Below are positions 51,485 through 58,111 of a DNA stretch of 64,000 nt, piece after piece (within the stretch, counting starts at the first letter, position 1; every line of letters begins with the position of its first letter). The DNA comes from an uncultured Ectothiorhodospiraceae bacterium (GTDB taxonomy: Bacteria > Pseudomonadota > Gammaproteobacteria > S012-40). The translations under genes were made by a program, and so were the position numbers. The DNA is taken from contig CALZJE010000004.1 of assembly GCA_945787715.1 (NCBI GenBank), positions 1 through 64,000 of the forward strand, given 5' to 3'. The notes under the pieces are model-generated. The model searched no databases, had not been told where the DNA came from, and worked only from the letters and a program-made list of their open reading frames with translations.

Positions 51485-51988
51485 TGTCGCCCTCTACAAA
51501 ATTAAGTTAATGTGTGTTGTTGATGTCGAGGTATCTTGCATGATTGGCAGACATTATTCAAGTGATTTAGTCTGTTATTCCTACCAAAAAATAAGCAATC
51601 TCTCCCTATTTTTATTTATTTGCTCATGAATTCATCAAATTGTTTAAAGTATATTTTGAAAGCAATTTTCAATATGGATTACTTGTAAATTGCAGTCGCT
51701 TGCTCAAGCATTAGTTGATTGTTTTCAATTCAGTTGTTTTCGTAAGCTGTGTAAGTACTAACAATATTCCTAGTAGATGAAGTTTTCCCCCTCCAATTTA
51801 ACTTTCTAAAGCGTAGTGAGAACTGAGTCCTGAAAGATAAAGGATTAATTTGTCAGGACGCTACATTCTCTAGAATTCGCATCAATCTGATCAGCTTCGA
51901 ATTAGTCTAAGTTGTTCCTGAATAGCACTAGCGTTGTGAATATGTCAGGGGTTATTCAGTAATTAGGTTGTTAACAGATAGGAGTAGT

Positions 51989-52867
51989 ATGCGGGGGATG
52001 AAAGTATATAAAACGCCAAGCGACTTGGTGCGGGGTGTCGATAAGTTAGTTTCATTACCAGAGGTTTGTTTTTTGGTAAATGATTTGGTTAATGATCCAA
52101 AGTCAGAAATTGAGCAAGTCGGAAGTGTTATAAGCCAAGATCCGGATTTAACAGCGCGTTTATTAAAATTAGTGAACAGTTCCTATTATGGATTTGAGAC
52201 TCCTATTGATACTGTGTCACGTGCAGTGATGATGGTAGGCCTCAGAGAGTTGCAACATATGGTATGGGCAAGTTCTGCGGTGGAAACCTTTAAAAGCTTG
52301 CCGCCAGAAGATGCGAATATGGCAGGATTTTGGCGGCACAGTATTTTTTGCGCTGTTGTTGCTCGTATCTTAGCGAGGGAATGTAATGTTCTTCATCCTG
52401 AAAGATTATTTGTTACGGGATTGATGCATGATATCGGGCGTTTGTTGATGTTTATCAAAATGCCAGAAGCTTCGAGTAAAATTTTTAATATGGAAAAAGC
52501 CTCGCCCGAGAGAAATATAGAGGAGTTTGAGCAGGAAGTATTGGGATACGATCACACAGACATTGGTTTGGCACTTTGTAAGTCCTGGGGACTACCAGAG
52601 AGTATCTCAACAGCTATTGGAAATCATCACGCGCCAAGCACTGCAGACGAATATGAATTAGAAAGTGCAATATTGTATGTCGCAAATTTAATGGCTCATG
52701 CATTAGAGTTAGGTGATGAAGATGATTTTCAGAAAACAGCTGATGTTGAAGTGTGGCAGCTGTTAAATTTATCCGAAAAATCAATTAAAAAAACGTTGCA
52801 TGAAGCGGTATTGCAATTTTTAGAGGCGCTGGAGTTATTGTTGCCCGGTGCGAGTCAAAGAGTTTAG
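51989..52867 (+). CDS. HDOD domain signalling protein
   Basis: The protein (292 residues from this ATG) is a single HDOD domain. It begins with SLPEVCFLVNDLVNDPKSEIEQVGSVISQDPDLTARLLKLVNSSYYG, the family hallmark, followed by RELQHMVWASSAVE and a partial HD motif (VTGLMHDIGRLLMFIKMP, then DHTDIGLALCKSWGLPESISTAIGNHH). HDOD proteins act as non-enzymatic output domains in signalling, often with c-di-GMP or chemotaxis-type systems. ATG at 51989 has AGGAG five bases upstream; further upstream starts are less likely. The CheZ-like gene starts 13 bases after the stop, so they form an operon. Confidence 0.88.
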   Translation: MRGMKVYKTPSDLVRGVDKLVSLPEVCFLVNDLVNDPKSEIEQVGSVISQDPDLTARLLKLVNSSYYGFETPIDTVSRAVMMVGLRELQHMVWASSAVETFKSLPPEDANMAGFWRHSIFCAVVARILARECNVLHPERLFVTGLMHDIGRLLMFIKMPEASSKIFNMEKASPERNIEEFEQEVLGYDHTDIGLALCKSWGLPESISTAIGNHHAPSTADEYELESAILYVANLMAHALELGDEDDFQKTADVEVWQLLNLSEKSIKKTLHEAVLQFLEALELLLPGASQRV

Positions 52868-52880
52868 AAGGAAATAGTAA

Positions 52881-53369
52881 ATGTCTGATACATCGCTATA
52901 TGGCACGGATTTTAACACCCCCGCATATGCTAAAGAAGTGGACCGTGAAGAACTAGCTAGAGCATTGATATTATTTTGCATTCAAGACGGGAATATCGCT
53001 TCTGAAAATATTAGTGGGCGTTTAGCAAAAATACAAACAATGTTGAATGAAACCCAGGAAAAGCTTGGCGGAAATGAAGAAAATATACCGCTTTTGATGG
53101 CCGTCAATGGCGTGCAGAGCGAAGTAACAGAAGCTCTCATGGCGTTACAATTTTTTGATCGCATTACTCAGCGAATGGATCATGCCGTAGCGACAATCGA
53201 AGGTGTTCAATCTACACAAGATATGCGTAAGCGATTCACAATGGAAGACGAACGTGTACTTTATGATGCGCTATCGAAAGGTGCGAATTTAGATCTGGCT
53301 GTTAATATGGCAAAGCAGACGCTAATTTCAACAATTGATAAAAAGGGCGAAGATATCGAACTGTTTTAG
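52881..53369 (+). CDS. CheZ-like phosphatase candidate
   Basis: The 162-residue protein is all-helical and acidic. The segment EALMALQFFDRITQRMDHAV contains Asp93 and Gln97 in a DxxxQ arrangement, the same catalytic pattern that CheZ uses to dephosphorylate CheY (DLTGQ in E. coli). CheZ is longer (214) and forms a four-helix bundle dimer; here two long helices (about 25-62 and 66-108) could make such a bundle. The C-terminal tail (VNMAKQTLISTIDKKGEDIELF) ends in an acidic/hydrophobic peptide, as CheZ does for CheY docking. Assignment rests on this motif and on linkage to the HDOD gene. Confidence 0.5.
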   Translation: MSDTSLYGTDFNTPAYAKEVDREELARALILFCIQDGNIASENISGRLAKIQTMLNETQEKLGGNEENIPLLMAVNGVQSEVTEALMALQFFDRITQRMDHAVATIEGVQSTQDMRKRFTMEDERVLYDALSKGANLDLAVNMAKQTLISTIDKKGEDIELF

Positions 53370-53551: not shown

Positions 53552-54218
<667 letters not shown>

Positions 54219-56171
54219 ATGAATGGAGAGCAGTCGTTTCGAAGTTTTTTACGGCTTTTTCATTCCGGCTTTCTGATTGCCGTAAATAAATTGTTACTTA
54301 ATTCCAATATATTAAACGCATATCTCAGGAAAAGCGGGGGAGGCTGTTTGTTAGCAAGCATTGGAGCATTTAGCGAAAGTGTAAAATGCACTCAAGATGA
54401 ACTGAGTATTTCTTGTTCATGCTATGTCGTGATATTTTATGTTCTTTTTCTTTTTTCTTTTCCCGTCATTGCAGAACCCGAGCGACCTAAAAAATTCACA
54501 AATGAAGATAACATGGCTGCGATCAAGTATGTTCGTGAATTTGCTGAGTATCATCGTGATGAAAATGACATCCCAGGATTGAGCATTGCGCTTATTGAGG
54601 GAGAGAGAATTATTTGGCAAGGGGGTTTGGGCGTTAGCAACAAGAATTCTGAAATAGCATCGGATGAGTTAACGTTATATCGTGTTGGAGCATTATCAAC
54701 TTTGATGACTGCTGCACTCATTGTGCAGATGGAACAAGAAGGAAAATTGAGGTTAAATGATCCTGTTACACAATACCTCCCGGAATTAAAAATTAAAAAT
54801 CAAGATTCTGTTCCCACAATAAAACAGCTGCTAACACATCATGCCGGACTGCCATTAAGTTATTTTAATGGGATGTGGACTGAATCTCCCGATTCGCTTC
54901 AAACGATTGTCAACAAAATAAGTGATTTATCCGCTAGCTTTTCTGTGGATCGAGTATTTGCTTACTCTAATTTAGGCTATGACCTATTAGGTAGAATAAT
55001 TGAAATTGTGAGTGGCAAAAGTTTTACTGAAGTTGCTGATAAAAAGTTGTTTAAGCCATTAGGAATGAAGTATTCGAGTTTTGCATGGAAAAAAATAGAT
55101 AAAAAAAAGTTAGCTGCTGGATATAAGGATGGAGAATTTAAACCGTTTCTAGAGACAAGAGATCTACCAGCTTTGGGATTAGTCAGTAATGTAAATGATT
55201 TAGCGAAGTTTGCACAGGCAACAATGGGATTATTATCCTCATCTCAAAAAGTGATGAAACAGCCTTCCTGGAATAAAATGATTCAGGTTCATAATAGTCA
55301 TATTAAACTTGATTTAAATAAAGGGATTGGGTTGGGCTGGCAAATTGGGGGAATGGAAACGAAATACGGGAAATCCGTTGTTTGGCGACAAGGGTCAACG
55401 CTTTTACATCGAAGTAGAATTGCAATGATTCCTGAGCTAGGTTTGGGAGTTGTAATTATGTCAAATTCCAGTAAAGGATTTCGAGCGCTCGATGCGATAA
55501 GTAATGAGGCTTTGGATGTTTTGCTTGAAATCAAACTGGGTAAGCAACCGGCTAAGGAAAAGAGTCCACAGATAGAGTTAACTGGAAAAATCACTGACTT
55601 TAAATCACTTTATAGTTCTTATATCGGATTGATAAAGGCTGAAAAAAATGGGGATAATTTTTTGCTGGATGCAATGGGTTGGGAGATTGTACTTAAGCTT
55701 GAGAATAACGGATGGTATCGACTCGAATATGAACTGTTAGGATTTATTCCCTTAAAATTGGATTGGTTTGCAAAAATTAGAGTGACTGCCGCAATTATTG
55801 ATGGCGTTGATGTGGCGATAATTCACCACAATGGTGTGAATTATTTATTTGGCATGGCGTTGAATCCTCCAGTGCTTTCGGAAAAATGGCGTAATCGTAT
55901 TGGGGTGTATGGGCCGAAGATGAAAGATGCGCTATTAGATCATTATGAAGTCGGTGAGGGAGAGCTAAAACTCTATGAGGAGGTTTTAGTGTTTGAATAT
56001 GAGCTTCCAGCATTTTTACCGTTAAAGTTACGGATACCGTTTTTTCCCTTGTCTGATAATGAGGCTTTGATTCCTGGATTGGGCACCGGTCTAAATGAGA
56101 GGGTGACAGTTGGTCTTGATAAGGATGGAGAATACCTGTCTTATTCAGGGTATAAAGTCGTAGAGAAGTAA
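54219..56171 (+). CDS. Beta-lactamase-fold (serine hydrolase family) protein lacking catalytic residues
   Basis: The C-terminal 530 residues match the class C beta-lactamase/PBP4*-like fold (IPGLSIALIEGERIIWQGGLGVSN, then MEQEGKLRLNDPVTQYLPELK, TIKQLLTHHAGLP). The catalytic SxxK, expected in the segment YRVGALSTLMTA, reads A-L-S-T: the nucleophilic Ser is Ala and the Lys is Thr. The YxN motif (AYSNLGYDLLG) is kept; the HxG-type motif is RQG. A pseudo-enzyme is the likely reading. A hydrophobic segment ending FSFPVIAEP looks like a signal peptide, but it is about 70 residues inside this start. Alternatives are TTG at 54348 behind GGGGGAGG, or TTG at 54126. About 200 C-terminal residues form an extra beta-rich domain. 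Confidence 0.8.
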   Translation: MNGEQSFRSFLRLFHSGFLIAVNKLLLNSNILNAYLRKSGGGCLLASIGAFSESVKCTQDELSISCSCYVVIFYVLFLFSFPVIAEPERPKKFTNEDNMAAIKYVREFAEYHRDENDIPGLSIALIEGERIIWQGGLGVSNKNSEIASDELTLYRVGALSTLMTAALIVQMEQEGKLRLNDPVTQYLPELKIKNQDSVPTIKQLLTHHAGLPLSYFNGMWTESPDSLQTIVNKISDLSASFSVDRVFAYSNLGYDLLGRIIEIVSGKSFTEVADKKLFKPLGMKYSSFAWKKIDKKKLAAGYKDGEFKPFLETRDLPALGLVSNVNDLAKFAQATMGLLSSSQKVMKQPSWNKMIQVHNSHIKLDLNKGIGLGWQIGGMETKYGKSVVWRQGSTLLHRSRIAMIPELGLGVVIMSNSSKGFRALDAISNEALDVLLEIKLGKQPAKEKSPQIELTGKITDFKSLYSSYIGLIKAEKNGDNFLLDAMGWEIVLKLENNGWYRLEYELLGFIPLKLDWFAKIRVTAAIIDGVDVAIIHHNGVNYLFGMALNPPVLSEKWRNRIGVYGPKMKDALLDHYEVGEGELKLYEEVLVFEYELPAFLPLKLRIPFFPLSDNEALIPGLGTGLNERVTVGLDKDGEYLSYSGYKVVEK

Positions 56172-56269: not shown

Positions 56270-58111
56270 ATGAGCCAAGCAATCTCCAAATTACAGCGTG
56301 TAAAACGTTCAAAGTATCAAAGTTTTTCCGGCATTGATGGCGATCATCCAATTAAACAAGCGGTGAAAAACATGTATGTTGGGTACGATGCTGTTTGTCG
56401 TACAGATGGTAAAGTTGCCTATTTTAACTTTGAGTTAGCGATTGAAATGGGATTATTGCCTGCTACCCATGCACATCGTTTAAATCCCGCTTTAGAAAAA
56501 GAGATAATTCATGCATTTTCATTAAAAATAGTCAATGAGTATGATGTCTTAAATCGTACCAAAATTGATCCAACACAGATTGCAAAAAAGCAATATATGG
56601 CCACGCGTTATCTACAGATGCAGCATCCCAATAAGTTTGGTATGACATCAGGTGATGGGCGAAGCATCTGGAATGGTCATTTTAAAGCAAAAAACGGACA
56701 CTGGGATATTTCTAGCTGTGGGACAGGTGCGACTCGCTTGAGTCCGGCTTGTGCCATTGAGAAAAAATTTTTTCGCACGGGAACAAACCTGGTTTCTTAT
56801 GGATGTGGATTGGCAGGATATCGAGAAGGTATGATTGCTGCTATTTACAGCGACTTGATGCATAAAAATGGAATTCCAACAGAGCGAACTTTAGCGATTA
56901 TAAGTTATAAAAATGGTACTTCTGTTAACGTACGTGCGTCAAAAAATCTATTACGGCCGGCTCACTTTTTTGGTTATATGAAACGGAAAGATTATCCGGC
57001 CTTAAAGGCGTTGATGGATTATTGCATTAATCGAGAGATAGAGAATAAAAATTTTCCTGTAATTAAAAATGAAAAGAAACGTTATCAGGAATTTCTCAAT
57101 TATATTGCGAAGAACTTTGCTCAGGTATCAGCAATATACGAAAGCGAGTATATCTTTTGCTGGATGGATTGGGATGGCGATAACATTTTGTTTGACGGTG
57201 GGATAATCGATTACGGTACGATACGACAATTTGGTTTATTTCATCATGAGTATCGTTATGATGATGTGAATAGAATGTCTACTACGATTACTGAGCAGAA
57301 AAACAAGGCAAAGTACATCGTTCAGATTTTTACCCAAATCGTAGACTATTTGTTAACGGGCAAAGATCAGCCAGCCACTGAATTTAAACATAATGCCACG
57401 ATATCTCTCTTTGAAAAAATATTTCAGCAGACCAAACTAAAGCGGTTGCTGTGGAAAATCGGTGTAACTGATGAGCAAATAGAAAAGCTGATAAAAGACA
57501 AAGAATCTCTTGAGCTAACTGAGCAGTTTCAAACTATATATCGTTTTTTTGAAAAAGCCGTGTCCAAGCGCAAAGCTTATAAAGTTGCAGATGGTATTAC
57601 ACGAGATGCTATTTTTTGCATGCGGGATTTTTTACGAGATTTTCCTCAATTCTATCAATATAATAGAAGAGTCATGAATGAAAGTGAATTCATCGAGCTC
57701 GTTGCTTCAAGTTATGCATCAAGACTGGATAAAGTTACGTTTCGAAAGAAAAGTGCTCAAATTAAAAAACTTCAAAAACGCTATATGGCATTGTTATCTT
57801 ATGTTGCAGCGAACGCGGGAATAACAGAAGTTGATTTGTTTGCCCAGATCATTGAGCGTTCGTCAATTATAAATCGTTATGAAAAAATGACAGGTAACGC
57901 GATCATTAATGTAGTCGATCGTTTGGCAAAAAAACGCGCTAAAATGAGTGTTGGTGAAGTGCAAAGTTTCATAAAAATATTGGTGAGTGAACAGACATTA
58001 CAGTCGATTGAATTAGAGGTGAAAAATCACACCATTCGCACATCAGAGCAGGTGAAAAAGTTGCTCAAGTGGTCGAATAAAATGATGGAGAATCATCGAG
58101 ATAGTATTTGA
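56270..58111 (+). CDS. Divergent SelO-like pseudokinase-fold protein
   Basis: The 613-residue protein resembles the SelO (YdiU) protein-AMPylase family in the order of its motifs: SGDGRSIWNG (128), GHWDISSCGTG (143), SDLMHKNGIPTERTLAI (194) and DWDGDNILFDGGIIDYG (300-316). In SelO the matching segments are GDGR, WxLKGAG, SEAMHxLGIPTTRAL and NTDN..DYG. The metal-binding Asn (N305) and DYG Asp (D314) are kept. The Lys of LKGAG aligns with Ser148 or nearby, and the partner Glu is Asp195, so activity may differ. The C-terminal 250 residues are helical and not SelO-like. Cytoplasmic. It follows the beta-lactamase-like gene by 98 bases. Confidence 0.6.
   Translation: MSQAISKLQRVKRSKYQSFSGIDGDHPIKQAVKNMYVGYDAVCRTDGKVAYFNFELAIEMGLLPATHAHRLNPALEKEIIHAFSLKIVNEYDVLNRTKIDPTQIAKKQYMATRYLQMQHPNKFGMTSGDGRSIWNGHFKAKNGHWDISSCGTGATRLSPACAIEKKFFRTGTNLVSYGCGLAGYREGMIAAIYSDLMHKNGIPTERTLAIISYKNGTSVNVRASKNLLRPAHFFGYMKRKDYPALKALMDYCINREIENKNFPVIKNEKKRYQEFLNYIAKNFAQVSAIYESEYIFCWMDWDGDNILFDGGIIDYGTIRQFGLFHHEYRYDDVNRMSTTITEQKNKAKYIVQIFTQIVDYLLTGKDQPATEFKHNATISLFEKIFQQTKLKRLLWKIGVTDEQIEKLIKDKESLELTEQFQTIYRFFEKAVSKRKAYKVADGITRDAIFCMRDFLRDFPQFYQYNRRVMNESEFIELVASSYASRLDKVTFRKKSAQIKKLQKRYMALLSYVAANAGITEVDLFAQIIERSSIINRYEKMTGNAIINVVDRLAKKRAKMSVGEVQSFIKILVSEQTLQSIELEVKNHTIRTSEQVKKLLKWSNKMMENHRDSI

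Follow-up and report, generated by a model that had tools for sequence, protein, structure and literature searches.

A divergent SelO-related protein family with an altered active site and, in one large group of Bdellovibrionota, an adjacent S51 peptidase gene

Pseudokinases were regarded as inert until SelO showed otherwise. A SelO-like protein with a modified active site may be an enzyme with a different activity, a binding protein or a dead gene copy. Such a protein is encoded in a 64,000-nucleotide stretch of DNA from an uncultured Ectothiorhodospiraceae bacterium (contig CALZJE010000004.1, positions 1 to 64,000; hereafter, the window). The open reading frame at 56270-58111 (+) is intact and encodes a protein of 613 amino acids (P0001) which on its own has no significant match in Pfam, is matched by the NCBIfam YdiU model with E=3.5e-16 and 59 bits, far below the model cut-off of 431 bits, and as a single sequence finds SelO in the PDB only weakly, with E about 0.2.

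Relatives of this protein were found in 41 loci in a scan of GTDB genomes, most at 42-57% identity, and the alignment A1 of the window protein and 38 relatives (39 members) includes sequences from Gammaproteobacteria, Nitrospirota (Manganitrophaceae) and Bdellovibrionota. In a search of 369 gammaproteobacterial genomes with the A1 profile, 12 contain a clear full-length member; these members reach about 900-980 bits, against no more than 40 bits for canonical SelO, which means that the ∼600-residue proteins form a discrete family. The family is present in 120 of the 241 sampled Bdellovibrionota genomes and in 2 of the 148 from Nitrospirota. In the FastTree tree, the window protein groups with the gammaproteobacterial copies, the nearest of which comes from the same genus, and three Nitrospirota copies are placed among the gammaproteobacterial ones. 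The dN/dS values of six comparable pairs of relatives lie between 0.03 and 0.13, indicative of purifying selection (three further pairs are saturated at synonymous sites). Given the number of loci, the spread in Bdellovibrionota and this selection, the open reading frame is not a chance one.

The gene is not a dead copy or pseudogene either, as the intact reading frame and the low dN/dS rule this out, nor is it the drifted sole SelO of the organism because a canonical SelO with K113 and E136 in place is encoded on another contig of the same genome (L042, G000:C49:5756-7123). Broken copies with in-frame stops or frame shifts were seen elsewhere in the family, in a Thiotrichaceae MAG (L039), a gammaproteobacterial MAG (L041/L109) and Candidatus Manganitrophus GAC4 (L037), and may reflect gene loss or assembly error. 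No conserved operon was found around the family gene in gammaproteobacteria, where the neighbours vary by lineage. In the window, the upstream gene (54126-56171, +) encodes a serine hydrolase of the Beta-lactamase family (PF00144); as called, this ORF is extended far at its N-terminus, and the true start codon probably lies further downstream. At 51968-53369 (+), an HDOD-like protein is followed by a possible chemotaxis-type protein (CheZ-like, by eye). Related HDOD-like genes are also located near the family gene in loci L003, L006, L038 and L100.

The family belongs to the SelO superfamily by both profile homology and a SelO-type kinase-like fold. Profile-profile comparison (hhalign) of the family with an alignment of 23 canonical SelO sequences, headed by the SelO from the genome of the window, gives a probability of 98.3 and E=1.9e-14 over 302 columns, covering window residues 46-404. 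In this SelO alignment, the residues named in the Pseudomonas syringae literature fall at the same numbers, and K113 and E136 are both present in 23 of 23 sequences. The NCBIfam YdiU model matches all 39 aligned members, and Pfam SelO (PF02696) matches 24 of these, with a best value of 4e-12, the window protein not being among them. The AlphaFold model of the window protein (mean pLDDT 89.2, pTM 0.90) has nine Foldseek hits in the PDB at E<=0.001, all to SelO/YdiU, with true kinases appearing from E=0.03 upward; thus, the comparison with SelO structures that the first-pass annotation had proposed recovers a SelO-type fold, and the outcome named there as refuting, a predicted structure lacking the SelO/kinase fold, did not occur. 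The same annotation described the region after residue 330 as helical and unlike SelO, which for the most part does not hold: the profile alignment extends to residue 404, and sequence similarity to SelO becomes undetectable to profile alignment only beyond about that point, and the Foldseek alignment spans about 576 columns (TM 0.65-0.70 normalised by SelO length), which makes the helical C-terminal half not wholly foreign to SelO.

The active site is where the family departs from SelO. Profile alignment equates R93, K113, E136, E141, R176, R183, D252, N253 and D262 of SelO with R131, C150, A190, D195, R222, R229, D304, N305 and D314 of the window protein, respectively (Table 1). In SelO, the gamma phosphate of the flipped ATP is held by K113, with E136 supporting this contact, and is bound by R176 and R183 as well; the metal ligands are N253 and D262, the latter also acting as the base (PMC8097203). 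Among 103 family members, the residues equivalent to the arginines, the metal ligands and the base (R131, R222, R229, D304, N305 and D314) are all invariant. The SelO motif order, including DN and DYG, had been recognised at first pass and is confirmed. The ATP-contacting lysine is missing, as also noted then: the position of K113 is occupied by Cys in 54 members, Arg in 36, Ser in 9, Gly in 2, and Val and Gln in one each, but never by Lys, with Arg being the mark of the Bdellovibrio-like clade. The claim that the partner glutamate has become aspartate, however, results from a register error. D195, probably the residue that was taken for the partner, aligns with E141 (SEAM motif), at a position that is Glu in 83 of the 103 members, whereas E136 (IREFL) pairs with A190, and therefore, both halves of the Lys-Glu pair are lost; position 190 holds Ala in 54 members, Thr in 30, Ser in 15, Cys in 2, Asp and Gly in one each, and Glu in none.

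A further change, missed at first pass, affects position 300, which is Asp in 94 members, Glu in 8 and Ala in one (acidic in 102 of 103) where the SelO equivalent is Val248 in 23 of 23 sequences. D300 sits five residues before the metal-binding N305, a spacing as in PKA, and since the published SelO model equates V334 of human SelO with Asp166 of PKA, and N339 with Asn171 (PMC3281104), position 300 is that of the HRD aspartate. The possibility that the missing lysine has been relocated, as an invariant replacement, to the family-specific insertion finds partial support: K166 in this insertion is Lys or Arg in 95 of 103 members. Of the 85 residues that are near-invariant among the 103 members, most lie within the predicted active-site motifs or in the stretches that separate these. 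At the C-terminus, a fixed Ile or Leu ends 96 of 101 members, mostly as [RK]-[ED]-x-[IL], and the Cys(Sec)-Ser-Ser (SCSS) tail of SelO is absent; this CSS tail has been reported to be essential for the NADase activity of SelO (PMC13391479).

Table 1. Coordinates of the SelO-related gene and of its main active-site features in the window
Feature	Position	Strand	Basis
Whole gene, SelO-related protein of 613 aa	56270..58111	+	ORF, relatives, profile alignment, structure model
GDGR loop, residues 128-131; R131 = SelO R93	56651..56662	+	Invariant in 103/103
C150, position of the SelO ATP-lysine K113	56717..56719	+	Lys in 0/103
Bulk of the family-specific insertion (residues 156-176), located between strand b3 and helix C	56735..56797	+	K166 basic in 95/103
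A190, at the site of E136, the C-helix Glu of SelO	56837..56839	+	Never Glu
D195, aligned with SelO E141	56852..56854	+	Profile alignment
R222 to R229 = SelO R176, R183, phosphate-binding arginines	56933..56956	+	Invariant in 103/103; roles from PMC8097203
D300, acidic residue at the HRD-Asp position	57167..57169	+	Residue counts; PMC3281104
D304-N305 = SelO D252-N253, metal site	57179..57184	+	Invariant
D314-Y315-G316, DFG-like motif; D314 = SelO D262	57209..57217	+	D314 and G316 invariant
C-terminal residues RDSI	58097..58108	+	Ile/Leu end in 96/101, no SCSS tail

Gene neighborhoods provide a second line of information. In one large group of Bdellovibrionota loci, the SelO-like gene is directly followed on its own strand by a gene for a Peptidase_S51 protein (PF03575, E=4e-25) that has affinity to PepE and cyanophycinase. 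This second gene typically overlaps the stop codon of the first by 4 nt (for example, L025:3933-4595 and L035:8886-9548), and the two are usually translationally coupled. The motifs GlSAG (with the serine) and PH (with the histidine) are kept in 30 aligned copies of the peptidase. At a threshold of at least 135 bits, this S51 subfamily is found in 69 of the 241 Bdellovibrionota genomes searched, all 69 of which also have the SelO-like gene, so that it was never found without the family (Fisher P=9e-28, in a test that ignores shared ancestry); the peptidase gene lies directly downstream in 58 of these genomes, elsewhere on the same contig in 4 (in three of these, divergent within 125 bp) and on another contig in 7. 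In one Nitrospirota genome, the two genes are divergent and about 118 bp apart. Neither the loci of the Bdellovibrio-like clade nor those of gammaproteobacteria have an adjacent S51 gene; eight gammaproteobacterial genomes contain only more distant S51 proteins, encoded away from the SelO-like gene, and a search of the window's own genome found no S51 homologue.

The explanation that accounts best for these observations, with a probability of roughly 0.55, is that the gene encodes an active SelO-fold enzyme of the nucleotidyltransferase type with a rewired phosphate clamp, rather than a dead pseudokinase, and that in many Bdellovibrionota, this enzyme shares one pathway with the dedicated S51 peptidase. 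By homology, the nucleotide would most likely be held in the flipped orientation of SelO, with the distal phosphates in the grip of R131, R222 and R229 and the metal bound by N305 and D314, and a nucleoside monophosphate (AMP or another NMP) would be transferred to an acceptor. Catalysis is argued for by the invariance of the metal, base and arginine residues in three phyla, and transfer of NMP is favored over phosphotransfer because the family keeps the arginines with which SelO binds its flipped nucleotide. The loss of the Lys-Glu clamp implies either that the distal phosphates are gripped in another way or that another donor is used: with C150 and A190 at the clamp positions, the phosphate tail would be held unlike in SelO, perhaps by K166 in the insertion, or else the donor would be other than ATP. 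D300 may act as an additional general base. Several facts count against this explanation, namely that loss of the VAIK-type lysine abolishes or weakens activity in most kinases, that the CSS tail of SelO is missing and that the window's genome yielded no S51 homologue.

A rather unlikely alternative, although the least so of those considered, is that the protein activates carboxylates, that is, adenylates a carboxylate and couples it to an amino acid or peptide, with the coupled S51 peptidase cleaving a bond of the same kind. Adenylation of a carboxylate by a kinase-fold protein is known for SidJ, and the SelO-related MchC/MceJ may carry out such a reaction in siderophore-microcin assembly; MchC, a published distant SelO relative, acts in peptide conjugation. 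This route would fit the dedicated S51 partner, given that all 69 genomes with it also have the family and that it lies directly downstream in 58, commonly with the 4-nt overlap, and the specificity of the S51 relatives PepE and cyanophycinase, which cut Asp-containing peptide bonds. However, the adjacent peptidase is missing from the Bdellovibrio-like clade and from the gammaproteobacterial loci, none was found in the window's genome, and direct similarity of the family to MchC lacks statistical support.

Less likely again is a nucleotide- or ligand-binding scaffold without catalysis, the second option of the first-pass annotation, which is in accord with the finding that no member has kept either residue of the Lys-Glu ion pair. 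The invariance of the other catalytic residues in 103 members from three phyla, the concentration of near-invariant residues in and between the predicted active-site motifs and the purifying selection all make a pure binding role less likely, whereas the other parts of the original proposal, a distinct SelO-fold family with an altered active site and another activity, are, respectively, upheld and plausible. A phosphotransferase that acts on proteins or small molecules comes last and is improbable: D300, N305 and D314 would restore an APH/kinase-like catalytic loop (D-x4-N ... D-Y-G), with the near-universal acidic residue at position 300, its PKA-like spacing to the asparagine and the uniform valine of SelO in its favor, but the equivalents of Lys72 and Glu91 are missing from all members, the arginines that contact the flipped nucleotide in SelO never vary, and the Foldseek E-values of SelO structures are about nine or more orders of magnitude better than those of any true kinase. 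The family protein is probably a working enzyme with unusual chemistry and not a dead copy.

As a sister family of SelO in which a complementary part of the active site has changed, with the Lys and Glu lost and an acid at the HRD position, these proteins amount to a natural experiment on the catalytic requirements of the SelO fold, and the coupled S51 peptidase is a concrete handle on the substrate of a SelO-like protein. A more speculative and rather unlikely prospect is that the family is one more catalytic branch of the SelO fold, in which the phosphate clamp dispenses with the Lys-Glu pair and the HRD position carries an acid, and that it would be paired with its dedicated S51 peptidase, as writer and eraser or as ligase and hydrolase, in a new type of covalent modification made by predatory bacteria and their relatives. 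Because the family occurs in half of the Bdellovibrionota sampled, among which are complete genomes of Bdellovibrio size, a genetically tractable predator probably carries it; a limited literature search found no paper tying Bdellovibrio to YdiU or pseudokinases.

Two Bdellovibrionota loci, L178:3687-6029 (+) and L179:2458-4812 (-), encode a different arrangement, a SelO-like domain followed by a C-terminal cytidylyltransferase-like (NadD/NMNAT-like, GTFDPPHxxH) domain, for which no description was found in a limited literature search. These fusions resemble the family weakly, within residues 27-333 of the A1 profile, and share the GDGRAAW motif, but differ from it in the signal-peptide-like start, the retained SelO lysine (VVLKGIG, VVIKGIG) and the C-terminal domain. 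A similar SelO-like protein of 688 aa is encoded at L180:2596-4659 (-), also in Bdellovibrionota, with no cytidylyltransferase domain detected. The NADase reaction of SelO converts NAD to NMN and AMP, and NMNAT makes NAD from NMN. Given that this NADase activity has been reported (PMC13391479), the fusion of the two domains is suggestive.

Among the known systems, the closest is the SelO/YdiU protein adenylyltransferase (PF02696; P. syringae SelO 6EAC, E. coli YdiU 6LNA), which has in common with the family the fold, the metal site, the phosphate-binding arginines and the motif order GDGR ... GxG ... R..R ... DN ... DYG; the equivalents of R93, R176, R183, D252, N253 and D262 of the AMPylase proper, an enzyme that transfers AMP to Ser, Thr or Tyr of proteins, are all present. 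The family differs in having neither K113 nor E136 in any of the 103 members, Asp or Glu instead of Val at the HRD position, its own insertion between b3 and helix C, about 125 additional residues and no SCSS tail. MchC and MceJ, the siderophore-microcin maturation proteins, have been described as a distant SelO subfamily, a relation that holds with larger profiles (PMC3281104). Compared by eye, the MchC of the E. coli Nissle mch cluster has a segment, VREPVVRPAHF (RPAHF motif), that resembles VRASKNLLRPAHF of the window protein, but retains the lysine (YQVKGIG) and the helix-C Glu, both of which the family lacks, and has a different gene context. Membership in the MchC group is not supported by a profile match: hhalign of A1 against the single MchC sequence yields a probability of 1.3 and E of 0.041 in the wrong register; too few MchC homologues were found to build a profile. 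This test is weak, as canonical SelO also fails it, and a distant link to MchC may exist; no HlyC-like acyltransferase gene, a mark of the MchC/MceJ group when adjacent, was recognised among the partly annotated neighbors examined. The APH/choline-kinase type enzymes share with the family the layout of the catalytic loop, the APH motif D-x4-N-[IV]-L ... D-[YF]-G, but not the loss of the Lys/Glu pair, and the structure search ranks such kinases far below SelO. Relative to an active protein kinase, the VAIK lysine and the helix-C glutamate are absent from the family, whereas Asp or Glu at the HRD position and the aspartate at the DFG position are present.
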